A stretch of DNA of 64,000 nt, from positions 35,182 through 99,181 of the forward strand of contig JAKSYS010000167.1 in NCBI GenBank assembly GCA_022925895.1. The letters are read 5' to 3'. This DNA comes from Fragilaria crotonensis. Lineage: Eukaryota > Bacillariophyta > Fragilariophyceae > Fragilariales > Fragilariaceae. The first letter of the stretch is position 1; the number at the start of each line of letters is the position of its first letter. The position numbers were made by a program, and so were the translations under genes. Under the pieces are notes generated by a model. It saw only the letters and a program-made list of their open reading frames with translations, was not told where the DNA came from and did no database searches. This document shows positions 5,292 through 63,572 of this stretch, piece by piece.

Positions 5292-5373
5292 TAAGTCCCC
5301 GAATAGGTCCAATTCGGCTCTCACTCGCCAGACAAAGAAGGCCAGCAAGTGACAGCAATGCGAGTGCCGGACC

Positions 5374-6504: not shown

Positions 6505-6838
6505 ACAGACCAGGGGCCAATTCCGCAGGAAGTGCCGGGAAGCTGGGATTCGGGTGAAACAAACTGAACCCTATACCCCATGGTCCAATGCCGCGGAGGC
6601 GGCGATTCGCGAACTCAAGAAGGGCGTTGGTCGGCAAATGGTTCGATCAAGAGCTCCTAAGAGGTTATGGGACGATTGTTTGGAGCGAGAAGCCTACGTT
6701 CGGTCCCTAACAGCGCACGACATATACCGATTAGACGGACAAGTACCCGAGACACTTGTCAGCGGCGAAACGGCCGACATTTCTCCGTTCGCGGCCTTTA
6801 AATGGTACGAATGGATCCTTTTTGGGACACGTCCGTGA
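6278..6838 (+). pseudogene. pol: Integrase core, C-terminal part, copia element 1
   Basis: Contains IMDGANEQ (second catalytic Asp) and, about 40 residues later, PYTPWSNAAEAAIRELKKG (catalytic Glu of the D,D-35-E triad). MVRSRAPKRLWDDCLEREAYVRSL follows, typical of the region after the copia integrase core. It is in a different frame from the preceding segment. The overlap at 6278-6504 is where one frame takes over from the other. Confidence 0.75.
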
Positions 6839-7741: not shown

Positions 7742-7892
7742 TACACTTTGGCAAGTGCCATTCGAAGGTATAGTTTCAAGATATTGACGATGAATCAACC
7801 CCACCAACCTTTCAAGAAATGCGATGCCACATGGTTTATGACGTTAAGATGGAGAACTTTCAGCGGAAAGCACGACTCGTCGCTGGGGACAC

Positions 7893-9389: not shown

Positions 9390-9515
9390 CTTCCCCCTCA
9401 CTGAGGTCCGCGGGTTTACATGGGTTCCCCTGGTGTTGTCCACGACGCACCTAAATGTCAGTGTACCATTACTCCTCGACGACGACTTAATGCACCACAT
9501 TAGCTACATTAACTC

Positions 9516-9523
9516 GAGGGGAC
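9516..9523 (+). other. Polypurine tract of element 1
   Basis: gaggggac lies directly against the TG of the 3' LTR, the usual place of the plus-strand primer. Confidence 0.6.
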
Positions 9524-9685
9524 TGATTCGATTCGTAGGTAGTAGACTACACGAGTAGGATATACGTAACCGACAGTACCGTACGCATACGGTATACGAC
9601 ACGATATGACACGACGATATTAACTTATAATTTCTATTATCGACTCGATTACGTTCGATCTTCTTTTCACGCCGTATTTCGCTCA
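9524..9685 (+). repeat. 3' LTR of copia element 1
   Basis: 162 bp, 161 of 162 bases identical to the 5' LTR at 3136-3297, followed by CAAT. Confidence 0.93.
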
Positions 9686-9689
9686 CAAT

Positions 9690-11028: not shown

Positions 11029-11033
11029 CATCA

Positions 11034-11591
11034 TGAGGGATCCCTTGATATCTACCGATGCAGTAGGTATTGGGATGTAGGCAGTATCAATACAACCGGA
11101 GCTATCGATTCTGAAGGTTCGATGGACTTGGACTTTGTCGGAACAAAGTATGTCAATCAGGGGACTTGGCGCGCGGAGCGAAGCTTTGTGTAAATACTAG
11201 TTTGGGTAAATTGTGATCTAATTTATTGCATTACTTCGAAGTCTCGACTCTCGCACTCAGTAGGCAGTTCGTACGATTCGTACCAACGTGTGACTAATGC
11301 AGATTGACCGGACTGGCTTGACCAATGAGATGATTCCCGAACGAGAGGTCTTGATAGTTTCGAGATGTGTGGATGAGGGGCTTTTCCATCTCCAATGCTC
11401 CCTCATTTAGCCACTCCTAAATGTCCTCAATCCCACATCGTTACATACATCACAAGTTGATGCTTACGGTTTCACCGTCGTTTTCGTAGAGTGCCAGTTG
11501 AAGACGATTCAGACACACTTGTACATTGCTACAGTGGGGATTGGATAGTGCCCGTAGCCCAGTGCTCGATGCGCAATCCCACACTCCCTCA
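11034..11591 (-). repeat. 3' LTR of copia element 2 (left copy)
   Basis: 558 bp, tgagggatccc...cacactccctca, with complete inverted termini. Confidence 0.92.
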
Positions 11592-11616
11592 TTCAACTGC
11601 ATGATACCGTGTCTCC

Positions 11617-13479: not shown

Positions 13480-14126
13480 TGCGGGTGGTCCGTACGCGAC
13501 GGGCGCGGCCTCATCGGGGGAGGCCCTTCCTCGTAGGCATCGGCGTAGTTAGGGGCTCGCGCGATGAGGTCCTGGTTGTCATCACCCTCCCAGTCGTCTG
13601 ATGACGAGTCGGACTCTCGTGGTGAAGTTCGTGACGGAAGCTGGTTGATGTCGTGACTTGGAGCGACGAGTGGAGCCTTGGGAGTTGGCTTGCGAGAGGG
13701 TGTGGGTCTGTTGGCCTGACGAGGAGGGAGCTGGGTTGGTGGAGGTTGACGAACGCGAGGTTGGTGGCGGCTAACCGTAGTAGCCGTGATGGTGCCATCG
13801 TCAGTAAAACCGTGGATGCGTTGCCACATGGATGGGAAGATTGGCACTGGTGCGTTGACGTGGGAGTTCACGGTCTCAAAATTGTCGTCGGCCTTGACGT
13901 GAAACTGAGGAGACACCAGTCCCGTGGTCAGTGACATGACCAGGCAGACTGAGCGAGCGTGTTCTGGGCTGAGTCCTAGATAGATTCCGCATCGAGCTCG
14001 CTCCCCCCATTTTGCTCCTTTCTTTCCTGAGGCGGGCTCGTCTTTCAGTACATACATTGGGCAACCAAAAGGGTGAAGGTGCTGATGGGCGGAAACTTGA
14101 AAGTCATGTCCCGTGAATAGCTGCAT
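13473..14126 (-). pseudogene. pol: Post-integrase linker of copia element 2
   Basis: 217 codons. The start HLHPFGCPMYVLKDEPASGKK and RARCGIYLGLSPEHARSVCLV are the region following the copia integrase core. A Pro/Arg/Ser-rich linker then runs into the RT frame. It is in another frame from both the integrase fragment and RT. Confidence 0.7.
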
Positions 14127-14242
14127 GGGGTTCTTGCCGTCTCTGATTGGGATGCAGCAACTGCTGTCATTTGCGAGGCGAATGGCGTAAGGCCAAAGGT
14201 TGGAAGTGATCGCGTTGGGCTAGCGATGTTTGGCATGCACGA

Positions 14243-14821
14243 TCATGGTCCGAGCCCTATCCTGCAGGTCGCGAATGCGCCTCTCAGCAATTCCATTTTG
14301 GAAATGTGCGTTGACGCCGCAAAAGTCAATTGCTGTCCTTTCATGAGACACTCCACGCGAAAATCGTTATCCGAGAACCGGCCGTTGTCACCGTGATAGC
14401 GCTTGACGGTGACGTTGTGGCTGAGTGCATATCGTTCGAAGGCATGTTTGGCTGCGAGCGCTTCAATTGCGTTGTTTGTTTCCTGCATGTGCACGAAGGA
14501 GAGGCGGCTGTAGTGGTCGACAAACACTGTGGCGCAAGTAAAGCGTTTGTTGGTCGATTTCCCTTTGCTCTGAGCCACTAACCCGGGTGTAGAGCTCTCC
14601 AATTGATCCATGGATACGATGTCGCCCGGAGCTTGGGCTGGCTCAAGCGTTGGTACGTGCCCTTTGTTGCACCAGGCTCCCTTGGTAATTTTGCCGAAGA
14701 GGCAAGCGGAGCACACGGGGATGGGGCAAGTCAAGAGATGCGCTCGATTGCGGTAGGTTCCGCTTTCCTTGATCATGATTCGGATCAAGGCGAAGGGCAT
14801 GTGTCCCAGGCAATGATGCAT
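14243..14821 (-). pseudogene. pol: GAG-pre-integrase and integrase core of copia element 2
   Basis: Contains the HHCC zinc-binding segment (HHCLGH, CPIPVCSACLFGK). Integrase core parts follow: SMDQLES with the first Asp, FVDHYSRLSFVHM, and YHGDNGRFSD with the second Asp. The frame is lost just before the expected Glu-containing N-G-x-A-E-R segment, where the reading becomes HISKMELLRG. The shift is near 14290. Confidence 0.75.
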
Positions 14822-15503
14822 TTGGAGTAACTCATGCTGGGCGGGGTCACCTGGTGTTGCCGGAATGCTGTCATCCTGAGGTGGCTCCTCTGTGACCCTG
14901 TCTTCGGTCGTTTAAGGTGGTGCCTTGTGGTTGATCGTTGTGTCCAGCATTGGTAGGATGGACGGAGGTTGTCCGGCTCTCTTTGAGTCGAAATCAAAAC
15001 GCAATGGATCATGCCTGACTGGTTCCGCGGGGAATACCCAATTGTAAATGTCGTCGGTGTCAACATTTTCGTCATGCGAGTTTGAGGGTGCTCGCGCCGC
15101 AGCAGCGGGTACGTCAACGTGGTTGAGGGGAGCGGGGAAGCACGTTGGCGTAGGTGGTAGCGCCAGGGCACAAAGGTTGAGGAACTTGGTGCTCTTCTTG
15201 TATCCTGGTGCCAATCTCAAGATGCCGACGAATGCATTTGACGATGACAGCTTGATGGTGCGCTGGTATTTGCGTTGCCCCCCACTGTAACACCATGGCA
15301 TCGGCGAATGTGGCGAGCCAAGTTCCTCTCGGTTTGGGAGAATCGTCTCGCTTCTCGGCGGCCAAGTGTTGTGGCGACAAGAGACAAAAAGCCAAGTCTG
15401 CGCAGTATAGCGTATTGCTGGGGATATCAATGGTGTCACTTGCCTTGATCGTCTTCCCACCTCCACTGTACGGTACCCTCGAGCGTAACATCTCCCGCAC
15501 CAA
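14822..15503 (-). pseudogene. pol: Protease-to-integrase region of copia element 2, scrambled frames
   Basis: Overlapping partial frames (14785-15171, 14912-15466, 15114-15503) carry the end of the protease domain (LYCADLAFCLLSPQHLA) and the spacer before the HHCC motif. Several shifts or stops interrupt it, including a TAA at about 14913. Confidence 0.5.
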
Positions 15504-15843
15504 GTCCCGTCACTTTCTTGGAGACCGCAATCGGAGTGCCAATGAAGTGTTTGGCGTCATTAGTCATGCAACGCGAAGCGCCATTGTCCACGAGGATGGT
15601 GAACGAGTCCGAATCAAAGCTGGTGATTCTCTTGTTGTTTGTGCTGCTTGAGTTCGTGGTCGCGGAAGCTGCGGCGGCGTTGACGACGGATGGAAACGCT
15701 GCGTACGAACTGTTGTCGTCGTCATCCAACACGGCAGCAATCGCTGCGGACATGGTGAGCCTGGAAGTTGTGGATTCGGATCCTGTCGTGGACGCAGCGG
15801 ACGTGGTCGGAGCAATGGATGCGTTTGCCTCCGCTGCAGCCAC
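15436..15843 (-). pseudogene. pol: Gag C-terminus and aspartic protease of copia element 2
   Basis: The protease active-site motif reads LVDNGASRCMT (D-N-G-A-S instead of D-S/T-G-A). An Ala/Ser-rich linker precedes it. The frame overlaps the end of gag in another phase. The shift lies near 15920, where the adjoining frame would supply a C-x-H-x-H...H...C cluster that ends gag. Confidence 0.7.
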
Positions 15844-17026
15844 CTGCTTGAGTCGAATGTAGCAGTCGGCTTCCTTGTGAAAGCCCCACTTCTTGTGGTA
15901 GTGGTAGGTGCACCAGCCAGTTGTAGTGTTTTCCGTCCACGGACTTGGTTGTGACGTTGTCCGTTGGGGCCTTTGCCATCCAATCTGGCTTCTTGGGGCG
16001 ATCGTTCTTTCCCTTGGCTTGGTATCCCTTTCCTTCTTTCTTGATCGGAGTCGCGTACTGCGCTGCGAGGGCCACTAGCTTGCTCTCGTGAGTTTGTGGA
16101 GCATTGTACGTGCCCTCTTGGACGAGCATTTGATAGGATTTCTGTGCCGAAATCATCAAGATTGGCAAAGTGAGCAACTTCGGGTCCGCTTCAGCTTTGA
16201 TCTTCTGTAGTTTGATGGCTAGCAAGAAGTCTTGATCGGGACAGATGAGGTAAGCCTTCATGACGTGCATGTAGATGAAAAGTACGTCGTCATGTGTCTC
16301 CTCACCGCCTTGACGAAGTTTCCTGAGCAACTCGGAGACATGTTTGTTGAACTCAACGACGTTGCAGTCGATGGTGACCATGAATTGTTCGAGTTCACCG
16401 AGTTGAGCTCTAACAAAGAAGTTGGTGGATGCTGTCTCAACTTCGCAATCGAGAAGCAAGACTTTGATGAGGAGCGCAGCTGAGGGCTCTCCGTTGTGGT
16501 TGTAGGAGTATTGAGAGCTTCTGAGTGCCTTGCTTCCCTCGGTGTCCAGACTGTTCAAGATGCATTGCACCATGAGGTAATTGTCTTGAGCCATCCTGGA
16601 CTGAGTTCCCAGGTAGGAGATGGTGGACGCCATGACGTTCTCCATGGTGAGGGCGCGCTTCTGGAGGATTATGTTGCACATTTTCCCTTCGTTGTCCTTG
16701 ATCATGATCAACGAGTTCCAATTGTAATCCTTGGCGCGCATGAGGAGGTCATCGAGCATAGGTCGAAGAGTGGCGATGGTTCCATCGTGCTTGGTGTTCA
16801 ACGAGTCCGTTGCGGTCTTGTAGATCTTCGCGTCCTTCGCCTTGGAGTAATCGTAGAGATCGGCGACAGCCTGAGCTGGAGTAAGAGCAAAGATGATTGG
16901 AGAAGCCGTGGCAGTTACACGTCCCTCGGGGTTGAGGGCCGCAACTGGAGGGTTTGCATACGGAGGTGGCGGATCTTGGATTGCCGCAGTGCCCACGGCA
17001 CCGGTTGGATCAATGACAGAGGTCAT
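15722..17026 (-). CDS. gag: Gag-like protein of copia element 2
   Basis: Starts at ATG 17026, 434 codons, mostly helical. Segments such as VADLYDYSKAKDAKIYK, KALRSSQYSYNHNGEPSAA and VEFNKHVSELLRKLRQGGE fit the retrotransposon Gag (UBN2-like) fold, and a Lys-rich stretch follows. The last 65 or so residues in this frame are probably out of phase, since the native metal-binding tail lies in the neighbouring frame. Gag forms the particle that packages element RNA. Confidence 0.75.
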   Translation of the reverse strand: MTSVIDPTGAVGTAAIQDPPPPYANPPVAALNPEGRVTATASPIIFALTPAQAVADLYDYSKAKDAKIYKTATDSLNTKHDGTIATLRPMLDDLLMRAKDYNWNSLIMIKDNEGKMCNIILQKRALTMENVMASTISYLGTQSRMAQDNYLMVQCILNSLDTEGSKALRSSQYSYNHNGEPSAALLIKVLLLDCEVETASTNFFVRAQLGELEQFMVTIDCNVVEFNKHVSELLRKLRQGGEETHDDVLFIYMHVMKAYLICPDQDFLLAIKLQKIKAEADPKLLTLPILMISAQKSYQMLVQEGTYNAPQTHESKLVALAAQYATPIKKEGKGYQAKGKNDRPKKPDWMAKAPTDNVTTKSVDGKHYNWLVHLPLPQEVGLSQGSRLLHSTQAGGCSGGKRIHCSDHVRCVHDRIRIHNFQAHHVRSDCCRVG

Positions 17027-17040
17027 CTTGGATGATCGGT

Positions 17041-17080
17041 GGTAAGCAGTGGTTCGAAAACTAACTGCGCAGAAGAAGCG
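17041..17080 (-). other. Leader of copia element 2, possible primer-binding region
   Basis: On the plus strand, directly before the LTR, reads ctgcgcagaagaagcg. This resembles the D-arm of eukaryotic initiator tRNA-Met (GGCGCAGnGGAAGCG). Its complement follows the 5' LTR in the element's orientation. An internal tRNA priming site, as in Drosophila copia, is possible but unproven. Confidence 0.25.
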
Positions 17081-17634
17081 TGAGGGATCCCTTGATATCT
17101 ACCGAGGATGCAGTAGGTATTGGGATGTAGGCAGTATTGATACAACCGGAGCTATCGATTCTGAAGGTTCGATGGACTTGGACTTTGTCGGAACAAAGTA
17201 TGTCAATCAGGGGACTTGGCGCGCGGAGCGAAGCTTTGTGTAAATACTAGTTTGGGTAAATTGTGATCTAATTTATTGCATTACTTCGAAGTCTCGACTC
17301 TCGCACTCAGTAGGCAGTTCGTACGATTCGTACCAACGTGTGACTAATGCAGATTGACCGGACTGGCTTGACCAATGAGATGATTCCCGAACGAGAGGTC
17401 TTGATAGTTTCAAGATGTGTGGATGAGGGGCTTTTCCATCTCCAATGCTCCCTCATTTAGCCACTCCTAAATGTCCTCAATCCCACATCGTTACATAAAT
17501 CACAAGTTGATGCTTACGGTTTCACCGTCGTTTTCGTAGAGTGCCAGTTGAAGACGATTCAGACACACTTGTACATTGCTACAGTGGGGATTGGATAGTG
17601 CCCGTAGCCCAGTGCTCGATGCGCAATCCCACAC
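17081..17634 (-). repeat. 5' LTR of copia element 2 (right copy), outer end deleted
   Basis: Matches the left LTR but lacks its last seven bases (tccctca). The sequence goes from cccacac straight into atcacatatcacatatcac. An 8-bp deletion between CAC direct repeats across the LTR/target junction explains this and leaves the CATCA duplication readable. Confidence 0.9.
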
Positions 17635-28126: not shown

Positions 28127-28853
28127 GGTGAGAAGCGCGTTAAGTTCTTGGCGTTGAGAGTTGAGATTATGTTCGTGTTGTTATGTGTGTTGCCGCCGCT
28201 GCAGTCGTATAACCTATACACGCACTGATTTCGGGCTTTCAGTGAGGAATCGGCACCCGCACTGGTTGCGTGCCAAACAGTTGTATTTGTACATGAGTTT
28301 GCTTGTGGCTGGTCCACAAGATCGACGGATCACCAATGAGGCTCATGGCCTATTACGAAACAGTATTCAAGCGGCACTGGAGTACTAAGAATTTAACGTG
28401 ATACTCTAGAGTAGACTCTGTACAGTAGTACTAGTACTGGAGTATGCACTGTACTGTACTATTTGTGCTATTCGAATCGAAACTTCACTGTCTTCAGTAC
28501 TCCAGTACCGTACCGGATAATGTAGTACGATGCTACATGCTATGTAGAACTATGCAACACTGTCGTAGGAGGTCATGAAGAAGATCTTTATATGCATATG
28601 AGAACACCAAAACGCACTCAACATCTACAGGTGTCTATGCATACAGTCCTGCCGCACATCACGCAGCTCATTGGGGTTCCGGACATGCACCTCGTACTGG
28701 TACTGATTGAACGGGGAAACGACATAAGATGCCGCCGAGATTCCAGTACCCCCTGGCTCTTGAGCATATCACTACGATAGAGGCGTCAAATCTTTCAGAC
28801 CTTCGATTAACCAACAATTATCTTGATTCGGACTCGACGTTTCACCTTTCACC
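28127..28853. other. Divergent promoter spacer with GTAC words
   Basis: 727 bp between eRF1 and the EF-hand/nitroreductase gene. A tract at about 28395-28530 is rich in AGTACT (ctctgtacagtagtactagtactggagtatgc, cagtactccagtaccgtacc). No gene supported. Confidence 0.55.
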
Positions 28854-29801
28854 ATGACTTGGTTCGCTCGTTTCAAGAATGCGCCAAGCGCCATCTTGAC
28901 GGCATTACTCTTGGCATGGAATTCACCACTTGCATTGGCGTTTGTGCAACATCAACGCATACAAGTACACAACAGATGGACGACTTCCACTTCGGCGCTC
29001 TTTGCCTTGACTGCTGAGCTGGAGCATGCGCGTGAAGTCTTCGCGAAATTCGACGAAAACGGTTCAGGATTCATCTGCTCTGTCGAATTGGGACATATGC
29101 TTGAAATGCTAGATATCGAGGCGAGTGCGGAAGACGCTGATGCCCTGTTCAAATACCTTGATGGCAACGGAGACGGAGAAATTGACTTTGACGACTTTCT
29201 ACCTTGGTACAGTAGCGCCGCCGAGGCGGCAAAGGAGGTGTCTTCCACTTTCCAGTCGCTTCTCATTGGCAGACGAACGGTGAACCAGTTCGATCAAACG
29301 CCCGTTAGCGATGATGTTCTACGAAGGGCAGTCGCCTGCGCCATCAACGCACCCAACCGAAGTATGAGTGAACCATGGCGATTCATCAAGATCGGCCCAC
29401 AGACTGTGGCCAAGTTTGCACAGCTCAACGAAAGGATGCACATGAGCATGGAAACCAATGATGCACCACCCATTCTGGATTGGACTACCATTCCTGGATG
29501 GTGTGTCGTCACGACCAAGCTGACGCCAGACAATCCGGCTGTCGAGCTTGACGACTTCAAGTCGACGAGTTGTGCAGTTCAAAACTTCATGTTGAGCATG
29601 TGGAGTGAGGGGATCGGAACCAAGTGGACATCTGGGCCAGTGCAATTCACTCAAGAGTTTGCTGACTTATGTGGTGTGGACACTACGAAAGAAAGAGTCG
29701 CTGGATGCATTTGGTACGGATTTGCAACTGGGGGGCTAGTTAACGCAGACCCAAAGCGCCGCAAGAAGGGAGTTGATGATGTCTTGAGCACTCTTGAATG
29801 A
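28854..29801 (+). CDS. Plastid-targeted EF-hand/nitroreductase fusion protein
   Basis: 315 residues from ATG 28854, one exon. Residues 10-30 form a signal peptide ending SPLALAF; the A-x-A-F cleavage motif followed by a basic, Ser/Thr-rich stretch is the bipartite plastid address of diatoms. Residues 55-118 hold two EF-hands with good calcium loops (DENGSGFICSVE at 67-78 and DGNGDGEIDFDD at 103-114). Residues 135-300 form a nitroreductase-family FMN domain: LIGRRTVNQFDQTPV, INAPNRSMSEPWRF, and QNFMLSMWSEGIGTKW. This would be an FMN-dependent reductase under direct calcium control in the plastid. Substrate unknown. Confidence 0.82.
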   Translation: MTWFARFKNAPSAILTALLLAWNSPLALAFVQHQRIQVHNRWTTSTSALFALTAELEHAREVFAKFDENGSGFICSVELGHMLEMLDIEASAEDADALFKYLDGNGDGEIDFDDFLPWYSSAAEAAKEVSSTFQSLLIGRRTVNQFDQTPVSDDVLRRAVACAINAPNRSMSEPWRFIKIGPQTVAKFAQLNERMHMSMETNDAPPILDWTTIPGWCVVTTKLTPDNPAVELDDFKSTSCAVQNFMLSMWSEGIGTKWTSGPVQFTQEFADLCGVDTTKERVAGCIWYGFATGGLVNADPKRRKKGVDDVLSTLE

Positions 29802-29933: not shown

Positions 29934-31361
29934 TCATTTCTGGGACAGCACTCCTTGGAGTGATTCGTTCACTCCATCTAGTTTCTGTATGGCCAACTCC
30001 AGTCGTCTTGCCATGCTGGTTTCCTCTAGTAGCACTTGTTTGCTGGGCGAATCTCCTATTGAATCGAACAGCACCCACACCACGTAGCTTAAACGTTGCA
30101 CTCGACGCAGCCTTGGATACTGCCGACGGGACGATACCCGTACCAAGGGGCTTTTCGTCCCAGTTCCGATCGAAGCGTTGCTTGAAATGAGTCGCTCGAC
30201 GTATTCTTCCAGTCGAAATCCCATCGGCCATTCTCGTCCTGCTTCGGACGGGAGCGAGAGCAGACCCAACATTTGCGATGGCACTGGGATAATCAAATTT
30301 GGGTTTATCTGCGTCAGGAGTCGCAACATGCGATCCAGCGCTACCCACACCTTGTGTTCTAATTGCAGCAAGTGCATGCTCGGAATGCTTTCAGGTCCAT
30401 CACTCAACAACTTTGGTGACAATGGCAGGAGCGCAATTTCTTCTCGATCGCTACTTTCTGAATGGGTCGGCCACGAAAAATCTGCGTCGTAATTGACCAA
30501 CGGGGATACCCCACCCATAGCGCTCCCAGAACTAGTTAGTTCCAATCGAGTTGGTCGAAATTCCCAGTCTCTCAGCAAGTTGGCCTGTTGAACGGCAGCC
30601 ATCCGCGCGTCCAATTCGTTGGAACCTTCGCTTCTCAGGCATTCCATCAGCTCTATGTCGGGTTCTAGTTGGATGGTAGCAATTGCGAATGGAACATGCT
30701 GCGTGGCAAACAGGATGCGAAATCTGTCCAAAGCTTGCACAATCAAGACAAGACGACCATCCTCTAACTGCTCGTAGTCAGATATTCTCATGAGAGTCCC
30801 GATCAAGGTCGCTTCCGACTCCGCCGACCCATTCACGTCGTCAGGCAAGCGGAAATCTGGATTGCTCAAATTTTCGGATCCTCCCGGTAGGTACACGTGG
30901 CCAAACATCCACGGTTTCTCACCACTAAGGATCCGTCGAAACATATGGGTGTAGTGCGGCACGTGACAATTTAAAACATTCTGGTATCCTGGCAGCTCGG
31001 TCCATTGAACTCTCCACAGGGGCACATTTTCCAACACGGTAGTATCGTCACTGGATGGAACAACTAGGCCTTCGGAATCGCCGCGATAAAAACTATCTTG
31101 GATTTTCCTTACTAATCGCATCCGTTCCTCTCGTTCTTCAGGAGTTTCCAGGTCATTAGGATTGATAGACGACGAAAACATTCTCGTTTTCGGGCACAGA
31201 TTAGTACCCACAACCGTATGGGAATACATTGCTTTGCGCCGCACAGATTCCAAAACGAATGCGCTGCAGCGGCTCGTCATTAAGAAATGAAGAAGCAGCA
31301 TCCACAATCTGTCATATCGCCGACTAGAGCGCCGGAGTGAATAGCCATGATGTGGCGCCAT
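29934..31361 (-). CDS. Plastid-targeted LON substrate-binding-domain protein
   Basis: 475 residues from ATG 31361. An open frame extends upstream, but this start places a signal peptide (LWMLLLHFLMTSRCSAF) with an S-A-F plastid motif near the N-terminus. From about residue 110 it resembles the LON N-terminal/PUA-like domain: PLWRVQWTELPGYQNVLNCHVPHYTHMFRRI, PWMFGHVYLPGG, IGTLMRISDYEQLEDGRLVLIVQALDRFRI. There is no AAA ATPase or protease domain, so it is a stand-alone LON-domain protein. In plants and cyanobacteria such proteins are linked to proteolysis or organelle gene expression, but the function is not settled. The C-terminus is helical and ends in LESTS-like basic/acidic repeats. Confidence 0.7.
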   Translation of the reverse strand: MAPHHGYSLRRSSRRYDRLWMLLLHFLMTSRCSAFVLESVRRKAMYSHTVVGTNLCPKTRMFSSSINPNDLETPEEREERMRLVRKIQDSFYRGDSEGLVVPSSDDTTVLENVPLWRVQWTELPGYQNVLNCHVPHYTHMFRRILSGEKPWMFGHVYLPGGSENLSNPDFRLPDDVNGSAESEATLIGTLMRISDYEQLEDGRLVLIVQALDRFRILFATQHVPFAIATIQLEPDIELMECLRSEGSNELDARMAAVQQANLLRDWEFRPTRLELTSSGSAMGGVSPLVNYDADFSWPTHSESSDREEIALLPLSPKLLSDGPESIPSMHLLQLEHKVWVALDRMLRLLTQINPNLIIPVPSQMLGLLSLPSEAGREWPMGFRLEEYVERLISSNASIGTGTKSPLVRVSSRRQYPRLRRVQRLSYVVWVLFDSIGDSPSKQVLLEETSMARRLELAIQKLDGVNESLQGVLSQK

Positions 31362-32214
31362 CGTCTTTGCAAGAGAACTAACGTATGGGACTACGTGAGT
31401 GTCCTTGACCGTTTTCAACCTCCATTTCATCACAAAAATGGCATCTACAGAGTATGAGTGAGTATGCATAATCTGCATGCCACGTCCAAGATACTTCTAG
31501 TACTTGCTGCTGTAGCAGTTTATGCATATAGTACTGAGAGGATCATACCCTAATTAAACACTACTGTGCATACTCGTAGTGCACGCCTTTCGAACATGCC
31601 ATACATTAAAACGACGTAAGGAAAGAGGAAAGACCCACCCCAGCACAACGACAGTGACTTCATATCGGTGATCGGACCGATCAAACAAAAAATTGTGGAA
31701 ACAAAAATAAGAGGTGGACAACTTTGATCACATGGCCAAAAACAAGACTCATCCGTAATCATCTGCGCTCGTCTCGTTTCTATTACACAACTCGCCACAG
31801 GCCCTGCTACCGTTCCTGTCACTTCGCGAGATGCAAGCGACGATGAGGATTGCTCGTCAGAAATGAAGGTGGGAGGTTCTCACACAACACTTTGGCTAAT
31901 TTTCCATGTCCACGATATCTCAAATGCGAGCGCCACTCATCTAATTTTACAAGCTCAAAGGCCGCTATCATCAGGAAAGGTGTACTCGCCGAAGTGGCGC
32001 GCGCTGAAAACGCCGCTGCGTATGCATAATTTCCAACAACACAAGAACGAAGCGATTCCTTCACGCTCAAAGGTTTTTCCAAAAGACGTTGAGAGGTGCA
32101 TGTGCGACATACGAAGTTCGAGTATATAATGAATGCGCCACAAAAATCTGGCTAAATTTGTCAGCGGATACACAAAAACTTTCGGAATGACCACGACTGA
32201 CACTCATTTTTTCG
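31362..32214. other. Divergent spacer, no gene supported
   Basis: Short ORFs on the minus strand (31550-31822, 31819-32082) resemble no family and look like chance frames. Confidence 0.5.
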
Positions 32215-34461
32215 ATGAAAGCACAAAAACCAAAAATCAAGATGAACATCTATCGAACCCAACTTCTTCTTTTGATTCTTCACGTGCCGTTGATGGCGAT
32301 GGTGGTGATGGCAGATGCTGACTTTGACGGACCTTCTCCGATTCAGAAGCGTTTGGATGCTCAACGGGTGAAAAGTCGCACTCCACAAAAGAGATATCTC
32401 ACAAACGCCCTTTGCACGGGCTGTGTGGTGATTGACATCGTGTTTCATATTATTGGAACCTCAAACAGCAATGCCGCTCGCCTATGGACTGATGCGTCCA
32501 TTGCTCAAGAAGTTGATCGAGTCAATCAACACTATTCTTCCACGCCCTTCCGCTTTAACAAGCGTCGTGTTATTCGGACTGCCAACAGTGTATGGGGTAG
32601 CGCGACGGTCGGAAGCGCGGCAGCTAGAGAGAGCATCGTGTCATCACTCCGAGTTGGCGGAGCGGATATTGCCAATGTGTTCGTCACTGACGGAACCTGC
32701 AAAACGACGGGTGGATATGGCACTTATCCTCGTGATCGTGGGTTCTTTCCTCCCAACCAATACTCGAACAAGGATTATATATTCATTTGTGCGACTGATA
32801 CAGGTATCATGTACGATGGTGTGTATCACACGCTTATTACTCATGAACTTGGCCATTGGTTGGGATTGTTGCATACGTTTTCCGGCAACAGCTGTGATCC
32901 CTCGAACGACGGCGACGGAGTAGATGACACTCCACAACACCTGGAAAATGCCGAAGATGCTAGCTGCGGCGACAGTATAAACACGTGTCCATCACGCCCA
33001 GGTCTTGATCCGGTTAACAATTTTATGAATTATGCCACATGTCGCAACCAATTCACTCTCGGACAAGTCGCTCGTATGTATTCCCAATTCAATTTTTACC
33101 GTCGTCGTGTTGAAGCTTGTTCCTCCAATGAGATTGATGCGGCCTTTGAAGTGCGCTTCGATGGGAAACCCGAAGAAATGGAAGTGTCGTATGCCGTTTA
33201 CTTGGACGGGGATGAAGAATGGACGTTTTTGAAAGCGTTTGGGTCAGAACCTGCAGTTGCCGATCAAGTCTTCACCAGAACGCTTTGCCTTGCGAAACAG
33301 ACGTTGTACTCGTTTTCAATCAGAGACACCGCTGAGGACGGATTCGATGCCCCAGGATATGCTGCCCTTACAGCTCGATCACAAGACATTTTTCGTCATA
33401 CTAGCTTGGATCGCGAATCCACAACGACGTTTGTGGTGTTCGACTCTTGCGCCTCTGGAGAGTCGCTGATGGTTCTGGATTTAGACTTGAGGGGAGATAA
33501 CGATGAGATTTCGTGGGAGATTACCACGCTCAACGCCGTTGTGGTTGATCGAGAAGTCACGGGTGCCTACGTCAAAACGGCATATCAACGCCTTTACTAC
33601 GAGAAATGCCTCGGTCCCGCCGAATACAAATTCACTCTTTACGACAGTGGCGGTAATGGAATGTATGGAACCTATAAGCTGAAATTGGCAGGCTCTCTTA
33701 TCCGATCTGGAGGTGGGCGCTCAGGCTTTCTTTCCTCGGAATCGACCTCAATTGTTGTACCAGGTACCTACGCATGCTTTTCAGGTTCGAGCATTATCCA
33801 CGTCAAAGGTAGGGGCGCTACTGAGATGCGTTCCCTCGAAATCGGTGACTTTGTCCATGTAGGAAATGGCGTGTACGAACCCGTCTACAGCTTCGGCCAT
33901 TACGACCATGACGCTCGCAAGACAATGTTGCAACTGCAAACTTTGGATTTTCTATTGCAAATTTCGGAAGATCACATGATCTATACAAAAGATCGTGGAC
34001 CTATCCCAGCTGGTCTCGTGGCTGTGGGTGACGAAGTTTTGGATGCAGATCATAATCCTCTGATGGTCAATGCAATTTCGCTGGGAAGCTCGCAAGGTGT
34101 TTTCGCGCCATTCACTGCGTCGGGTAGATTGGTTGTTAACGGTATCATGGTATCGTCCTTTGTCGCTCTCGAGCAATCTCCTCAATTGGTCATCGGTCCG
34201 TTTCAAATCTCATGGCAATGGCTGGCGCACGCCTTCGAGTTTCCCCATCGTCTCGTTTGCGGACGTCGTGGTTGTAGCGGAGAAACATATGACGCGAATG
34301 GAATCAATACATGGATTCCTCTCGAAGCGATCTTGTGGCTTATGAAACAAAATGCAGTTGTGAGAGAATTTCTGTTCCTTCTCCTTCTTATTGTGCTGGC
34401 ATTTTTTCATTGCATGGATGTTGTTTTACACTTGTTGAAGGTGTTGGAGGTTCCTCGATAA
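32215..34461 (+). CDS. M43-type metalloprotease fused to Hedgehog-type Hint domain
   Basis: 748 residues, one exon, ATG 32215 (a second ATG at codon 10 is possible). Residues 12-33 form a signal peptide. Residues 70-305 form a pappalysin-like (M43) zinc protease: HELGHWLGLLH at 210-220 supplies three zinc ligands and Glu211, and FMNYA at 270-274 is the Met-turn. Residues 310-500 hold two related beta domains (FSIRDTAEDGFDAPGY, FTLYDSGGNGMYGTY). Residues 520-655 form a Hint domain: Cys521 in YACFSGSSIIHVKG, MRSLEIGDFVHVG, ISEDHMIYT, and SGRLVVNGIMVSSFVAL. A transmembrane helix lies at 717-742. Hint domains cleave themselves at the Cys through a thioester. Cleavage here would release the protease from the membrane-anchored C-terminus. 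That last step is inference. Confidence 0.87.
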   Translation: MKAQKPKIKMNIYRTQLLLLILHVPLMAMVVMADADFDGPSPIQKRLDAQRVKSRTPQKRYLTNALCTGCVVIDIVFHIIGTSNSNAARLWTDASIAQEVDRVNQHYSSTPFRFNKRRVIRTANSVWGSATVGSAAARESIVSSLRVGGADIANVFVTDGTCKTTGGYGTYPRDRGFFPPNQYSNKDYIFICATDTGIMYDGVYHTLITHELGHWLGLLHTFSGNSCDPSNDGDGVDDTPQHLENAEDASCGDSINTCPSRPGLDPVNNFMNYATCRNQFTLGQVARMYSQFNFYRRRVEACSSNEIDAAFEVRFDGKPEEMEVSYAVYLDGDEEWTFLKAFGSEPAVADQVFTRTLCLAKQTLYSFSIRDTAEDGFDAPGYAALTARSQDIFRHTSLDRESTTTFVVFDSCASGESLMVLDLDLRGDNDEISWEITTLNAVVVDREVTGAYVKTAYQRLYYEKCLGPAEYKFTLYDSGGNGMYGTYKLKLAGSLIRSGGGRSGFLSSESTSIVVPGTYACFSGSSIIHVKGRGATEMRSLEIGDFVHVGNGVYEPVYSFGHYDHDARKTMLQLQTLDFLLQISEDHMIYTKDRGPIPAGLVAVGDEVLDADHNPLMVNAISLGSSQGVFAPFTASGRLVVNGIMVSSFVALEQSPQLVIGPFQISWQWLAHAFEFPHRLVCGRRGCSGETYDANGINTWIPLEAILWLMKQNAVVREFLFLLLLIVLAFFHCMDVVLHLLKVLEVPR

Positions 34462-55033: not shown

Positions 55034-55699
55034 GTTTTGAGATTTTCGGGTGGGTGCTTGTCGTTGATTAATGTGCCGTCGGATCGATGTTGTTGCCTGA
55101 TGCTGACAATTCTCATTATCACCACCGTCGGTGTCGTCAGTCGATGCGCGGCTTCTTGGTGGGGCGGTTAGCGGCGACCGTAGACGACTGTCGAGGTCGA
55201 CACGCACGCAAACTCGGAGTCAGTTTGTGACTCGGTGTGACTCTGGTTGCTCTGGTCATATCGTCCACACCGATACGCTATGTAAGTACGAGATATACTG
55301 TACAAGAGTACAAGTATGCTCTGATAGGATACTAAGGTATACTTGTATACGGTATCATATTAACATTCATACTCGAAGAACACCGTATATTATAATTCCA
55401 TTAATTTCAGTAAGTCGATTTATATGTGCATATGATAGAAAGCTCGATTCACGGACGTGCAGTACAGTAATAGTAGTACACTGTAGAAGGTACTCCGTAC
55501 GATCAAAACACAGTCCACAGTATAGTGCAAAGTGCAAAGTGCAAAGTACAGCACCAGGTACCAGGTATGCATACTGTTGTACCAGTACCCTGAGGCCGAG
55601 ACTTGAGACTTGAGATCGACCTCTGAAGAGATAGTGGAATGATGGCATAAGGTGAAATACGGAACACGAAAGCAAGCCGATGACGAAGGAACATCGACA
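55034..55699. other. Divergent promoter between two plastid genes, GTAC words
   Basis: 666 bp. Contains an imperfect tandem of gtgcaaa (gtgcaaagtgcaaagtgcaaagtac, about 55526-55550) and GTAC words (caccaggtaccaggtatgc). Confidence 0.55.
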
Positions 55700-58277
55700 A
55701 TGAGAATACAGATGCACGCTGCGACGTTGGCGATCCTTCCGATATTCCTCGTTTCGGCGCTGTCGTTTGTTCCATCGCCCCAACCAGCGCCCTCAAATCG
55801 CCGCCAAGCAAAATCCAGCCCTTCTGCTCTGCGCAGGTATACCTTGACAAGAGCGAGTTCCTTTGAGCAAAGCGTTCGCAACTGTCTTGACGAAGCAGTA
55901 GTCCTTTATCAACATTGTTCGCTTCAAGAATCGTCGACAGACGAAGCAGTAAGTATCGCCCGTGACATTGGACGACTTTTATACACAGCAACGTCCAATT
56001 CCACATCAAGGTTGACTGCTAAAAGCCCTGACAAGCTTTCGCAGCAGTTCGATCAAGCCATCTTGCGTGCTTCTCAAGATCCCACGGTGGTCCCGCAAGT
56101 CGAAGCCCTAGCATTTTCATACTGGAAATCGACTCGCATCAATCCTGCGATGAATTACAAGCCAACAGTTTTTGATAGTCTATTGCTGTCGGAATCTACC
56201 TTGCGGCTACAGAAACTTAGACAATCCCTTAATGATGATGGAACTAGTTCAGCCATTCCACTGTACGTGGCTGAGCGGGATTCTCCGGTGGAACGATCAT
56301 TAGACGTGCGTGATGAAATGAACATGGATTTTTCAGCAGCTTTCGTTGACGCCGACCGACAGACCGAGAAACAACCGATTGAAGGGGAAAGTTCGACAGA
56401 TGACGGCGAATCTTCGGCGACGATGGTGTATGAAGAGTCAGTTGATGACATCCAACCGATTGCTCAGATTGCGCAAGATCAGACTCTACGAAGCAACACA
56501 GATTTCTCGGATGACGTTGATTTCGTAGACGTTGCGATTGTGGGCGCAGGTATTGCTGGTCTTTGCGCTGGGGCGATACTAAATACAATATATGGGAAGA
56601 AAGTGGGAATATATGAATCCCACTACCTCCCGGGTGGATGCGCCCACGCGTTTGACCGACTCGCTTCAAACAATGTTACTTTCACGTTCGACTCCGGACC
56701 GACTATCGTTCTCGGTTGTAGCAGGAAGCCGTACAATCCCCTTCGGCAGGTTCTCGATGCTATTGGACAATCAGTTGATTGGATCCCGTACGACGGGTGG
56801 GGTATGATTGAGAACCCCGGTCGAGACAACGAGCTCCGATGGAAGGTGCAGCTAGGGGAGAACGCATTCCAAGAAGGCCCCATCAAACAATATGGAACTG
56901 ACGCGACGCTTGCCGAGTTTGAGAAACTTCGGGAACTCACGAAAGGACTTGTACGAGGTGCCGTTGGTATCCCTGCAATGGCCATGAGAGCAGGGAAATA
57001 TGCTCTTGTTCCACTCCTTCGTTACCTTCCTGCGTTGTTTGACATCGTCAAACAAGGAGAAGAGTTTACGCGCGGGACATTCAAACCCTACATGGATGGT
57101 CCTATCTTTACAGTCACCGACCCTTGGTTACGCTCTTGGTTAGACGCTTTGGCGTTCTCTCTGTCTGGACTTCCGGCCTCGCGTACTGCGGCAGCTGCGA
57201 TGGCTTACGTCTTATATGATATGCATCGGCCAAATGCTGCTCTGGACTATCCACGCGGAGGATTGGGTCAAGTAATCGATGCCCTAGTGCAAGGCGTCGA
57301 ACAAGGAGGCCATGAGTCGAAAGTCAATCTCCGATGTCATGTTGTGAGCATTGACAGTTCTCCAAATGGAGATCGGATAACTGGCTTGACCCTCAGAGGG
57401 GAAGACTGTGAAGGCCAAACTTGGCGTTATCAGTACCGTCCCGATGTGGTCACTTAACAACCTGATACAGAATCGGAAAACTCGGGAAGTGCTCGACCAT
57501 TTCATCCAGTACAACATGGATCGCAGTCCTAAGATGTCTTGGGAAATGGACGGAGGAATCGGTTTCATACGAAGTGAACGCGAAACTGTTGACGGTGCAA
57601 AACGCTCGTTGCTACATCGGTGCGATACCGCGGAGATGACCGGATCATTTCTACATCTTCACCTTGCTATCCACTCCGACGGGTTAGAATTTGACAAGCT
57701 CGAAGCCCACTATACTGTAATGGATAGGTCACTCGCCGGCGATGGTACTGCTCGCGACGGACCATGCGGCGAATTGAACATGATCGCTGTGTCGAATCCC
57801 TGCGCCATTGACAGGTCACTGGCGCCAGACGGTTACATAGTTCTTCACGCATATGGCGCCGCTAATGAACCTTACGAAATTTGGAAGAACGTCAAGCGAG
57901 GATCTCGTGAATATGAAGAACTGAAGCAGAAACGATGCGAGGTACTCTGGCGAGCTGTTGAGAGCATCATTCCTGACGTTCGGGAAAGAGTCGTTTTGGA
58001 CATGGTTGCATCGCCTCTGACTCATGAGAGATTTCTTAGACGGCCTATGGGGACTTACGGCGCTGCCACCGAGGATTACTTGCAGGATGGCAGTACACCA
58101 TATGAGACGCTGGTGCTTGCAGGGGAAGGTGTCTTCCCTGGAATAGGCATCCCGGCCGTTGCGCTTTCTGGGGCTTCCGCAGCGAATTCAATGGTGAGTC
58201 CACTACGGCAGTGGAAGGCATTAGACAAACTAAAGACCGAAGCGCTGCTCCAGTTGAAACGTAGTGCAGCTAAGTAA
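55700..58277 (+). CDS. CRTISO-like carotenoid isomerase, apparent frameshift
   Basis: Starts at ATG 55700. A signal peptide ends VSALSFVP, an A-x-S-F plastid motif, with a Ser/Arg-rich transit part. About 180 poorly conserved residues precede the FAD-binding core, VDVAIVGAGIAGLCAG at about residue 280. SHYLPGGCAHAF and FDSGPTIVLG follow, as in the phytoene desaturase/CRTISO family. The frame stops at 57457, but the downstream part continues in another frame from about 57408: KLGVISTVPMWSLNNLI, then LAGEGVFPGIGIPAVALSG and a normal end at 58277. Joining needs a one-base shift near 57400-57415; no GT-AG intron fits well. It is a sequencing error, a recent mutation or true frameshifting. The role would be cis-trans isomerisation of carotenoids in the plastid. 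Confidence 0.78.
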
Positions 58278-58304: not shown

Positions 58305-61300
58305 CTACGAAAGGAGCTTTGCCTGTCTGACGAGGTCCTTCCATTCGGAGGCAGGCACAAGATAGCAGCGTTGCTTCTCGGTAGGGTCAGCTCTGCTGAG
58401 GATTCCGATAACTTCGCCTTGTTGGTTGACGCAAGGTCCACCACTGTGACCGCCAATGGTCGGGCAGATAACCACTACCTCCTCACGAGGCTTGAAACGA
58501 TGACGAAGATAGCCGCTGCCGTCCTGAGCATTGGCGAACTTCTTGCAAACATATCCTCGAGCAAAGTCGACGTATCTGTTTAAGCTTTCGCCTGGTCCAA
58601 GAAGACCTTCGCCGCCTTGGTTAAATCCAAGAATTCTAACCGGTTCATCCAGTTCAGACTTGTCGGTTACTTTCAAGTGCTGGAGTCTCTCGCGCTTTAT
58701 GGCTTCATGGTTGTGTTCAAGGAGAGTCTCTGGTTGATCGCCGCATCCGTCGCCATTTCCAGTGACATCGCTCTCCATCCTTGTTGTGATTCTCAGCACA
58801 CATGCATCTATTTGGCACTCACCATTCCTGTCAATACTTGGGTCTTTGTTCACTATCCTTGCGAAGTAGCGAAAGACTGCTTCGTTTCCGAGTGTTTCAT
58901 TCTCTTTTTGGCGCGGGATTACACCAATGACAACTTTCCCTTCCCTGAGGCCATAATAGTTGTCGCCAAAAGGAGAGCTCTTGTCACCCCAGATATTCAT
59001 GAGCGTGTGACTTGCGGTGACAATGAGGCCTCGCTTCTTGTCAACAATGAATCCAGATCCAACACGCACAACTTTTCGGGATTTTCCGTCCCACAACCCG
59101 ACGAGGACGATTCCCCTGAGCAGATCGTTTATGGGAACAGCTGGGTCGTTGTCGTTGAACTTCGTTGGGTTCAACTCAGCGGCCTGCTTACCCAAGGTAT
59201 CGATGGGACCGGTAATCAATCGTGTGTCGACTCTGTGCCCATGGTGGCATCGCATGGTACTTTCTCCTTTCTGTGCCGCTTCGCGCATGAAGGTCCAGTC
59301 CCAAGAGCTTGCCTCGCTAACCGCCTTTTTCGAAATACACTCCGGACAAAAACCTTGCTTTTCGTATTCTAAGCCTCCGTATTCAGGCATAATTTTCCCC
59401 ACAGACTTCAAAACAAGCAAATACCCTCCGTTCCAAATCTTGCGGCCACCATCTCCAACCTGGCCCTTGGCACTCACTACAAGCCGCCTCATCCCAGCCC
59501 CCATAACATCAGAGCCGACGCATAGGTGGGATTCTCGATCCACCAAATAGGCGAAGATTTCAACCACGCTTTCTTTTAGTTCACCATTCTCATTTTTGAC
59601 TTCAGTTCCGAGTTTGAGGAAAAAAGCAGTACGCCAACACAAGATCTCCTTCACGCGAAGAGGTCCATCCAATGTCTTGATGCCCTCGCCGTGAAAAGCT
59701 GAATGTACAATAAGCTCGTATCCCTTCGAAACTGCAAAGATAGTACTCAAAACGGAGGCAGTTATTCTTTCCATCAAACCAGGTGGTACTCCATCGGGAA
59801 ATAGGATTGAATGACACAGCGTAGTCTTCCAACTGTCATTATTTTTGTAGGTCCATGCCTCTGCAGGCTCTCCAGGTCCAAGCAAACTGGGCAGGAAGAA
59901 GAATTGTGACTCTTGCCTCGTCTCGTTGTTTGTTTCAACAATGGCAGTGGGAGCACTATAGCCGTCATCTACCGTTCGTGCGTACTCTTTCCCACCAAGA
60001 AAAGCTTTCTCGATGCTGAGGTCTATGGGAACAAAAACTCCAAACCGAGTCAGCAATTGCTGCAAGAAAACAAAAGGAGTCACTGTCATATTGTTAGAAT
60101 ACTCCTCGGCGCGATCGGCCGCCTTCCTCGTGAATTTCTTCGCCTGCCAAAGCATCAAAGCATCTTCAGCCGTGATGACAGGACAATTGAGGTTGCCCTC
60201 GTAGGCGCCGTAGACAGGTCGAGATTCAGTCGTAAACGAACGTCTTGTTTCTCTTATCTCACTGTCCAAGTCGTGACGCAAAATGCAAGCCACAGCGGCC
60301 ACAAGCCATCGAGGGTTCAAAAAAATGTACTGAGACAGGCCCCCAGAACCGAATTCGTCGTACGTTGAAAGCGATCTATCTTCGTGTGTACTTGGGGCGG
60401 TGAGGCTCGTGTCATCCATCGAAAGAACAGCGCTTTGCTCGTAGTCTTCTAAATCATCGTCGTCATCGGCATCGCCAAAAATGAATGCATCGGCGGCATG
60501 ATGCCCCCCAACTTTCCGACAGGATGCATTGCCAACCAATTCCTTCTTCGAAGGGTCGGCTAAAACATTTCCGAAGTACGACAGCTCTCCTGTGTTGGTC
60601 AAGAAGTGCAAAGCATCGCTGATATCCTCGACGTTCGTCAGACCTCGCTCACGGAGTTTGGTAATGAAATAGCCCCATTCGACAACTTTGAATTTTTCCC
60701 TTATTTCACGAACTGCATCTCTAACTTCGAGACGCATCTGGGGAATACGTGCTCCAACATGGCCTCGAAAGATAGGATACCTAAATCCAGCTCTTTCCCT
60801 CCCTGTTGCGAGCTGTACAATTCTCTGCGTGAGCTTGTCAAAGCCTGTATACTCAGTTCCACTAACCCGAACGACGCTGTCGTCATTTCCGAACATGAGC
60901 TTCGGTCGAGTATATGGACATAATAGTTTCCTTAGGCGGTGTGCAGCCTCGTCGCTTGCCCTGTTCTCGGCCTTGTACTGATCAAGACGCTCTTTCAGAC
61001 CAGCAATCCGCCGTTCCTCGTGCTTCATCAGTCTGTTTTTGAGTATGTTGCACCTTCTCGTAGCCTCTTCAGCATTATCTGCGCTGAAGTAGTCATCGAA
61101 TGATGCCACTGGCAAAACGGCGGCGCCGGGAGCACACGACTGGATGCATTCCACCCAGAACTGGACCTTCTCGTCGATATCTCTCTCAAGAGCTCTATCA
61201 GCTCGTCGAGTTTCTTCCTCGAAAGTAAAGTCGTCGTCATCTTCCTCGTCGGAGGAGTCATACGCCAGTCTGAAAGCACCGCGATCGCGAACCGTCACCT

Positions 61301-63572
61301 TTCGTCGATGAGTGGCGTGGTTCGTCGCTCCCATGTCCCAGACCACGACGTAAAGAGCATGCGGAGAGAAAAAAAGCTCGTGGGTGGCATGGTACACGTG
61401 TTGACCGGCGAAGTCCCAAACACTCAATTTGACATCAACTTCTCTGGCAATTTTTTCGTCCTCAATTTCGATACGCGTGTCTACCTGAGGTCGATCGCAG
61501 TTATTGCGAGGATCCCACTCGTATATATCTACCCCTATCGTGCGCTCATCGCGCTTGGGAATCACAGCCTTTCTTCCCTCGATAAGACGCTTGATCATGG
61601 AAGTTTTCCCGGTCATAGCCATGCCGACAAAAATCACTTTGAGAGTATCGTTTACAACGGCATCTTCAGGCTCTCCCAAAGCTACGTCGTCTCCGCAAAT
61701 ACCGGACACTAATTTCTCGGGGTCGGGCGACCCTGCAGCCACCTTGGGTCGATCATCATTGGAACCAATATTCGTCTTCATTTTGCCTTCGTCGAACGAC
61801 ACACTCCGAGTTCGGCCCAGGACCTTGTTATCTGCATTGCTCGGCAGCACAATCGGCTCTTCAGCACTGGAATGAATGGTGGTTGGTGCCATTTCGTCCC
61901 CGAAGCTTTTGCTTCCAGAGCTCAATTTGCTACCAAAAAAGCGGCCCATGTTAGGGAAAGATTTCTTGGCTTCGCGCTTCTTGTTCTTCACAAGTTTCTT
62001 CTGAACTTCTTCGAGTGCCTTGTGCTTGTTCTGTGCCTCCGCTCTGAGACAATGGTAATACCTCCTCATGCTGCAGATTCCTCTATCGCAAGTCTCAGTT
62101 GGCGGCTGGAGGACGGGGTTGCTTGAAACATCGATAGCCTTGATATCCATCTCACATACCCGCATGGGCACCTTCTCAAGATAATTGTTGTTGAGAGTAA
62201 GAGTACGGAGAGATTTGATTTGATCCAGTTCATCGGGCAGAAACGCCAAGTCATTGTAGCCAAGATTGAGCACCTCAAGTTTCGAGAGCAATTTTGGGTT
62301 TCGTGGTACTACTATTTCTGCCACTTTGTTGCCGTACATGTTCAACTCTTGCAGATCTGGGAGACCCTCCAACATCGCCTGTTCAATTGAGCACAAGTTA
62401 AGTTTCGCGATCCAAGAAGGAAATCAACGATAGAAACGGTCCAACTCACCTCTTCAGGAAAATCAGTCAACTTGTTAAGACTCAAGTTGAGTATTTTTAG
62501 TTGAGGCAGATTCCAAGTCTCCGGCAACTTTACCAGGTCACATTCTGAAAGGTCCAAGTGTTTAAGACTTGGAAGACAGTTCACAAGCTTGGGCGGAACG
62601 GCGCAAAGTCGATTCTTTGCCAAGCTCAGCTTGTGGAGGGTGTTTCCTAACGGAGTCCCATCCAAGTACTTCACAGGGATATCGGACGCAGCTATCTGCA
62701 TGCTATCAAGGTAGAGTTTTTTCTTCATGGGCCATCTGATGCTCTCGCACGTATCAAGAAGAATATTGATTTCCATGGTTTTGGTAGACCCCGTCTGGCT
62801 CTTTTCCTCGACCGTGGCCTCGACGCCCGTCGGGAAAATCAAGGAACTCGACTTCGCAAGTAAGATGCCATTGCGAGGTGGATTCAATGTTTTGCCGTAA
62901 AGCAGGGAAGTTGAGTGGTCACTTGATGATCGACTTATGGACCCCTCAGTTGGCGGAATCAACAGGGGAGGCATACCATCATCAGGTGTCTCAACATGAC
63001 CAAGCTCGATATCCGAATTTTGAGCGTCCAACTTCTGTCGTCGATCACTTGAGCGTTGCTTCGACATTTTCTTGGATCCCTTCGCTACCTTGTCGTTCTC
63101 CTTCGGTTTCTTTGGCGCCTTCTACGGAGAGATTGATGAACGAATGAGATTTAATGGCAGGTTAATATTGGACGTTCTGGCAAGGACCGCATGAAGCGGC
63201 AAGACTTACATGCACAACCACGGGCGATCCATTCCCTTCAATTTGTTCAGATAAGGACTTCGCTAGCGATGCAACTGCAGCCTTGTCGTTGGGTCTCCTT
63301 TCAACAAAAGTTGCGGTGGCATCCTGACGTTGTTTCATGCTCATGCTACTAAAGCTTGGTGCAGCCAAATCGCCGGAACTGCCAGTGGTCCTCCAAAAAC
63401 TCCCTCCAGAATCACGTCTCGAGGAGTCTATTCTCCGGTGAAATTCATCTTCGACGTCTTCTTCCTTTCCCATTAGGAAGGATTCTTGTTCGTACGAAAA
63501 TGACGGCTCTGCCTCGTCTGCTTGATCATTCAGCTCGCGATGAAGCTTGTGAATAGGACGGGGGTTGGACAT
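58305..63572 (-). CDS. Roco protein (LRR-ROC-COR) with C-terminal trypsin-like protease domain
   Basis: Three exons (minus), 63210-63572, 62450-63121 and 58305-62378, with introns of 88 and 71 nt (GTAAGT, GTGAGT), all phase 0; 1702 residues. Residues 1-270 are mostly disordered and charged. Leucine-rich repeats cover about 275-445 (LKHLDLSECDLVKLPETW, LEVLNLGYNDLAFLPDEL). The ROC GTPase has P-loop GMAMTGKTS (597-605), RTIGVD, switch motif WDFAGQ (666-671) and VASFDD near 770. COR follows (about 860-1300), with a CPEC...CHHGH zinc-like cluster near 1390-1430. Residues 1440-1702 form a trypsin-like domain with predicted His1469 (TASHT), Asp1536 and Ser1657 (GHSGGP). No kinase domain is present. 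GTP-controlled proteolysis after ligand sensing is inference. Its stop lies 27 bp from that of the CRTISO-like gene. Confidence 0.9.

Follow-up and report, generated by a model that had tools for sequence, protein, structure and literature searches.

Which output does a Roco-type GTPase switch control when a protease stands where LRRK2 carries its kinase? This question is raised by a gene of the diatom Fragilaria crotonensis, found in a 64,000-nucleotide stretch of its draft genome (contig JAKSYS010000167.1 of assembly GCA_022925895.1, forward-strand positions 35,182 to 99,181), which we refer to as the window and whose numbering is used throughout. The gene, at 58305..63572 on the minus strand, was delimited by open frames, a splice model and homologues of the same architecture and encodes, when spliced, 1702 amino acids comprising leucine-rich repeats (LRRs), a ROC GTPase, a COR region and a serine protease predicted to be HtrA/Deg-like, in this order. 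We consider it reasonably likely that the product is a cytosolic protease gated by its Roco part, in which an LRRK-like LRR-ROC-COR module controls an HtrA/Deg-type serine protease rather than a kinase.

The fusion of GTPase and protease does not depend on splicing, since a single open frame (58305-62423, 1372 amino acids) runs from the last LRRs through ROC and COR to the protease. Upstream of it, exon 1 (63210..63572, minus strand, residues 1-121), which has no signal-like N-terminus, is bounded by intron 1 (63122..63209, minus strand, GTAAGT...TAG), while intron 2 (62379..62449, minus strand, GTGAGT...CAG) leads into the long frame. A preliminary description made from the letters alone had proposed this strand, these coordinates and two introns, a catalytic triad numbered His1469, Asp1536 and Ser1657, and a Roco-protease fusion within one gene; all of these were recovered on the 1702-residue spliced protein, with ROC, COR and protease carried by one uninterrupted exon. 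Many alternative GT/GC-AG intron choices likewise left the frame open, so the exact junctions are defined by consensus sites. The position of junction 2, between FPEE and AMLEGLP, also agreed with the compared relatives including P0011, a protein whose source name leads to a Thalassionema frauenfeldii transcriptome (MMETSP0786, taxid 186022), and junction 1, with its poorly conserved flanks and consensus sites only, is placed with less certainty. A gene-model or assembly artefact joining adjacent genes, for which nothing speaks beyond the usual risk of an unannotated draft genome, is hardly credible given the uninterrupted exon and the same domain order in independent genomes and one transcriptome-derived protein. 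Two separate genes were ruled out by the uninterrupted frame together with the homologues of the same architecture, and separate transcripts for the two parts, a possibility raised in the preliminary description, were contradicted for a relative, as the transcriptome-derived P0011 contains LRR, Roc, COR-A and Trypsin_2.

A protein search returned 197 relatives and a profile search 235, with the best 120 of each listed, and the listed matches of both together comprised 127 proteins. These relatives are 90%-identity clusters, many of them metagenomic, and are therefore not independent events. Every listed match with a readable organism name, a minority of the matches, was a diatom. According to precomputed Pfam annotation, LRR, Roc, COR-A and Trypsin_2 occurred together in Nitzschia inconspicua, Cylindrotheca fusiformis, Mayamaea, Pseudo-nitzschia multistriata, Thalassionema and a Thalassiosira, and LRR, Roc and Trypsin_2 with COR-A unlisted in Epithemia, Odontella and Chaetoceros. 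Both pennate and centric diatoms are represented, and identity among the named members with the whole architecture was highest in Thalassionema (73%) and lowest in Chaetoceros dichaeta (P0124, 40%). In an alignment (A1) of 26 rows, consisting of 25 chosen relatives and the window fragment, which begins after its LRRs, Roc and Trypsin_2 were found in all 26, COR-A in 25 (E <= 1e-3, window fragment included) and LRR_4 in 23. A tree of the region from COR-B to the protease paired the window with Thalassionema (support 100/99), grouped the raphid pennates Mayamaea, Epithemia, Cylindrotheca, Nitzschia and Pseudo-nitzschia with unnamed rows (91/75) and joined Thalassiosira and Ditylum (96/91). Judged by generally known species relations, these groupings of the canonical proteins follow the pattern expected under vertical descent.

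The ROC domain (residues 586-872, 60798..61658, minus strand) matched Pfam Roc above its cut-off (E 1.2e-14), gave matches to LRRK2 and CtRoco and contained G1, G3 and G4-type residues. Its P-loop, GMAMTGKTS (residues 597-605, 61599..61625, minus strand), contributes G597, G602 and K603, and these residues as well as T625, D667/G670/Q671 and D774 were identical in 24 of 24 aligned proteins, i.e. the spliced protein and 23 relatives. All seven checked GTPase residues were present in 102 of the 104 ROC-spanning proteins among the 127 listed relatives, the other two being gapped there. COR-A and COR-B (residues 873-1411 with approximate borders, 59181..60797, minus strand) follow immediately after ROC. 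In the window frame itself Pfam COR-A scored below its curated cut-off (E 9.5e-7, 29.2 bits against 35.3), and the COR assignment is carried by the A1 rows and by a structural alignment of the predicted model to LRRK2 residues ~1326-1871, which ended at residues 1860-1871 and hence ran through the end of COR. Both the complete P-loop/switch GTPase and the COR-like region of the preliminary description are borne out by these results. Towards the end of COR, C1356, C1359, C1389 and H1393, present in all 24 aligned proteins, form a C-x2-C...C-x3-H motif (residues 1356-1393, 59235..59348, minus strand), a possible zinc site to judge by its conserved residues.

The protease (residues 1425-1690, 58344..59141, minus strand) matched Trypsin_2 across the whole profile (positions 1-144, E 2e-12, frame 58305-62423). 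Its catalytic residues, located on the spliced protein and in the alignment columns, are His1469 (TASHT, 59007..59009), Asp1536 (QIDACVL, 58806..58808) and Ser1657 (GHSGGP, 58443..58445), all on the minus strand. The three were identical in 24 of 24 aligned proteins and kept in each of the 122 protease-spanning proteins among the 127 relatives; a strict regular expression recovered all four motifs in 81 of 120 proteins and missed fragments as well as the variants TAGH and GQSGGP, and the alignment-column counts were used instead. The predicted structure of the domain (predicted local distance difference test, pLDDT, 93.6; predicted template modelling score, pTM, 0.92) had its closest folds in DegP, DegQ, DegS and HtrA1, and with a PA fold, a His-Asp-Ser triad and GxSGG it conforms to family S1C. 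The domain described beforehand as a trypsin-like serine protease is thus a serine protease with its triad in order, with HtrA/Deg-like replacing trypsin-like. An HtrA/Deg fold is confidently predicted directly after an LRRK2-like ROC-COR, at the position of the LRRK2 kinase. LRRK1 and LRRK2 share LRR-ROC-COR with the window protein, but continue with a kinase where the latter has a protease. No kinase, ankyrin, armadillo or WD40 domain was matched by Pfam in the three window frames scanned.

In contrast to HtrA/Deg proteases (DegP, DegQ, DegS and HtrA1), the window protein has no signal-like N-terminus, no PDZ domain was detected in it by Pfam up to E 1, the protease forming its C-terminal end, and its gate appears to be LRR-ROC-COR. 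These features also bear on a role in protein quality control, in which an HtrA-like protease or chaperone would act on damaged cytosolic proteins and ROC-COR would serve oligomerisation and localisation over signalling. The closest folds and a deep conservation that suits housekeeping agree with such a role, whereas the lack of a detected PDZ domain and a conserved GTPase pointing to a regulated switch make it unlikely.

Regarding the input, the LRRs (residues 236-460, 62034..62779, minus strand) are split by intron 2, with the exon 2 frame matching LRR_8 (E 8.2e-9) and the exon 3 frame LRR_4 (E 7.9e-8). Identity to the window in the 24-protein alignment amounted to 0.61 for the LRRs, 0.66 for ROC and 0.67 for the protease, and to 0.32 for the N-terminus and 0.18 for the LRR-ROC linker (residues 461-585). 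Similarly, the mean frequency of the commonest residue was 0.70 at 45 presumed concave LRR positions, 0.74 in ROC and 0.73 in the protease. As the LRRs are nearly as conserved as ROC and protease and are cut by one intron alone, their ligand is probably a conserved internal partner. The preliminary description had proposed a diatom surveillance system, that is a receptor whose LRRs sense pathogen molecules, whose ROC-COR switches and whose protease starts a death or defence cascade. The layout does resemble sensor-switch-effector proteins, a possible immune-receptor role of brown-algal ROCOs is discussed in PMC11378527 and PMC4104024, and bacterial conflict systems pair nucleoside triphosphatase switches with trypsin-like peptidases according to PMC7159879. 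Against this stand the LRR identity and concave-position values close to those of the catalytic domains, the one canonical genome copy found (a lower bound) and the one intron cutting the LRRs, compared with one exon per LRR, shuffled, in Ectocarpus ROCOs (PMC4104024). The many copies and fast-changing LRRs of an expanded immune-receptor family were accordingly not observed, and we regard pathogen surveillance as improbable; LRRs that guard a conserved self-component are possible and compatible with the same points.

Despite the otherwise drifting N-terminus, a motif of the form EPSFSYE...DEFHRR (residues 22-47, exon 1) was common to relatives, with an EPxxSYE-type pattern in 13 of 23, among them the centric Odontella, and DEFHxR in 9 of 23. 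Since no hydrophobic segment (best 19-residue mean 1.36) and no signal-like start were detected in the 1702 residues, the sequence suggests a cytosolic location. The poorly conserved N-terminus and LRR-ROC linker lie on either side of the LRRs and might offer cleavage sites to a protease that cuts its own protein or a partner, with autoproteolysis freeing LRR-ROC-COR or cleaving the linker 461-585 as an irreversible switch. Such processing is a supposition with hypothetical cleavage sites, and we rate it as very unlikely.

The combination of Roco and peptidase is already in print. In PMC11378527 (2024), 3 of 111 brown-algal ROCOs are described with a C-terminal peptidase domain (IPR009003), nesting among other ROCOs of stramenopiles, alveolates and Rhizaria (SAR), some of which likewise bear a peptidase, and diatoms are credited with at most four ROCOs per species; the statement in the preliminary description that no standard Roco family carries a serine protease is therefore outdated. 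Compared by description, brown-algal ROCO group 3 and some SAR ROCOs resemble the window protein in LRR-ROC, C-terminal IPR009003 peptidase and SAR relatives, and the brown-algal set differs in that COR is present in 18 of 111 and the peptidase genes (3 of 111) are treated in a few sentences. Elsewhere the same text names LRR-ROC-COR as the sole brown-algal architecture, and its accessible part contained no catalytic, functional or structural analysis of the peptidase. Neither diatom-wide conservation nor an HtrA-type fold at the kinase position was reported in the open-access literature searched, represented mostly by titles and the beginnings of abstracts. Bacterial Roco proteins (Chlorobium tepidum CtRoco and the loci L009-L011) share the LRR-ROC-COR core, and in a profile comparison with bacterial Roco the match extended over LRR, ROC and just the beginning of COR. 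A contig scan for prokaryotic fusions yielded five ROC-only loci, and in L009-L011 (L012 and L013 excluded) no protease was recognised by eye, L011 ending in a TIR-like part; as both of the short patterns scanned for came from ROC, prokaryotic fusions may nevertheless exist.

Searching the F. crotonensis genome (62.1 Mb, 881 contigs; copy counts are lower bounds) revealed one canonical gene, one diverged relative on contig C877 and one fragment on contig C830. The C877 paralogue (G000:C877:111336-114372; L021:2136-6894) combines a degenerate ROC with COR and an intact protease triad. It consists of two overlapping frames of 851 and 768 residues, the ROC-like part and COR plus protease, with either a frameshift or a small intron between them. 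Neither a canonical P-loop nor DxxGQ is present in the ROC part, for which Roc scored only E 0.049, while the Trypsin_2 match of the paralogue reached E 2.3e-13. The C830 fragment, a protease tail of 99 residues (L022:2695-2994, minus strand), lies beside repeated hydrolase-like frames, recognised by eye, that resemble one following the C877 gene, and it looks like a partial segmental copy. The Roc profile gave 34 matches in the genome, pooling Roco and Ras/Rab types, and also matched 8 of 14 control genomes.

Queried with the 768-residue C877 frame, the protein set yielded 106 matches, all listed, of which 5 had already been found and 101 were new; readable organism names, again borne by few of them, were those of diatoms. 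Neither GK[ST] nor Gln671 was kept in any of the 56 new proteins spanning the first half of ROC, and Gly602 was mostly Asp or Glu, while His, Asp and Ser were present in 68 of the 70 that span the protease (P0147 and P0204 were gapped at Ser). Because some of the 101 are canonical-branch fragments that lack ROC, the joint occurrence of a degenerate ROC and an intact triad rests on the 27 new proteins spanning both domains, 26 of which have the triad and one of which (P0147) is gapped; in the alignment of these 26, P0147 excluded, the triad was invariant. Some members retain a recognisable ROC fold, as Pfam lists Roc for 19 of the 106 proteins. LRR identities to the window were at most 19/225 in each of the 26, and Pfam detected no LRR in four scanned ROC-degenerate proteins or in either C877 frame; since a number of the 26 have short N-termini, the absence of LRRs may lie with the records and not with the genes. 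In the same COR-B-to-protease tree, made of 48 rows chosen from all, 15 canonical proteins were separated from 27 ROC-degenerate ones, including C877, by a 100/100 branch. Named or transcriptome-derived members of the latter branch were few, namely P0132 of Grammatophora oceanica, a record without ROC, and P0152 (MMETSP1360), in which degenerate ROC, COR-A and protease occur in one transcriptome record; the transcript P0159 has a degenerate ROC and no readable protease triad. The simplest account would be an intact Roco-protease ancestor from which one branch shed the LRRs and nucleotide-binding residues and retained the protease, the direction of change being inferred as the tree has no outgroup. 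This second family, also present in this genome, is apparently new, no ROC-degenerate Roco-protease being reported in the accessible parts of the open-access literature searched, including PMC11378527, PMC4104024, PMC7159879, PMC8195603 and PMC4421812. We read it as a GTP (guanosine triphosphate)-independent partner or a specialised copy.

Switching in Roco proteins works through GTP and contacts of COR, and an HtrA protease becomes active when its active-site loops are ordered. Joined together, these two modes of control suggest a GTP-gated protease, and the computed domains and their order, both sets of catalytic motifs, the protease fold and the conservation among the listed diatom relatives provide its parts. 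The LRRs would bind a conserved endogenous partner, GTP binding or hydrolysis and COR dimerisation would shift the LRR-ROC-COR module, and its movement may order or uncover the protease site, replacing the role of the PDZ domains and peptide ligands of HtrA enzymes. The activated protease would then cleave a specific cytosolic substrate. The role of the protease as output of the GTPase switch is our inference, and it fits with an LRR-less, ROC-degenerate sister family that keeps the protease. Several points weigh against this scheme: activity, GTP-dependence, substrate and dimerisation are hypothetical, the contacts between domains are unreadable from the whole ROC-COR-protease model given its pTM of 0.44, and GTP probably need not apply to every member in view of the ROC-degenerate family. 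More tentatively, diatoms may possess a two-branch system of a canonical HtrA-type protease gated by an LRRK-type GTPase and a derived LRR-less branch, in which ROC is without its nucleotide-binding residues and the protease is retained; the two may pair via COR, a GTP-sensing subunit controlling the protease dimer; if true, this would represent a new class of GTP-switched intracellular protease.

Among the neighbouring genes of the window, a Rossmann-type oxidoreductase (55643-58277, plus strand) in two overlapping frames, reflecting an intron or frameshift, lies tail to tail with the Roco gene, their ends 27 bases apart. Further away are a Peptidase_M43 domain (E 3e-17) fused to a hedgehog-type Hint module (E 5e-18; 32191-34461, plus strand), a nitroreductase fused to an EF-hand pair (28827-29801, plus strand), a LON substrate-binding domain in which other Lon domains were not detected (29934-31496, minus strand) and several retrotransposon-like gag/pol frames on both strands, identified by eye (4335-17098).

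The Roco-protease is real, conserved and mechanistically suggestive, and represents a variant of the Roco kind, not a separate category. The LRRK/Roco switch has been studied mainly via kinases, and a protease at the kinase position makes it possible to ask whether ROC-COR can gate unrelated enzymes in general, with peptide cleavage in the presence and absence of GTP as an easy read-out and a naturally ROC-degenerate family as a ready comparison for GTP gating. For the diatoms themselves, a major group of aquatic primary producers, it may uncover a conserved proteolytic step under GTP control.

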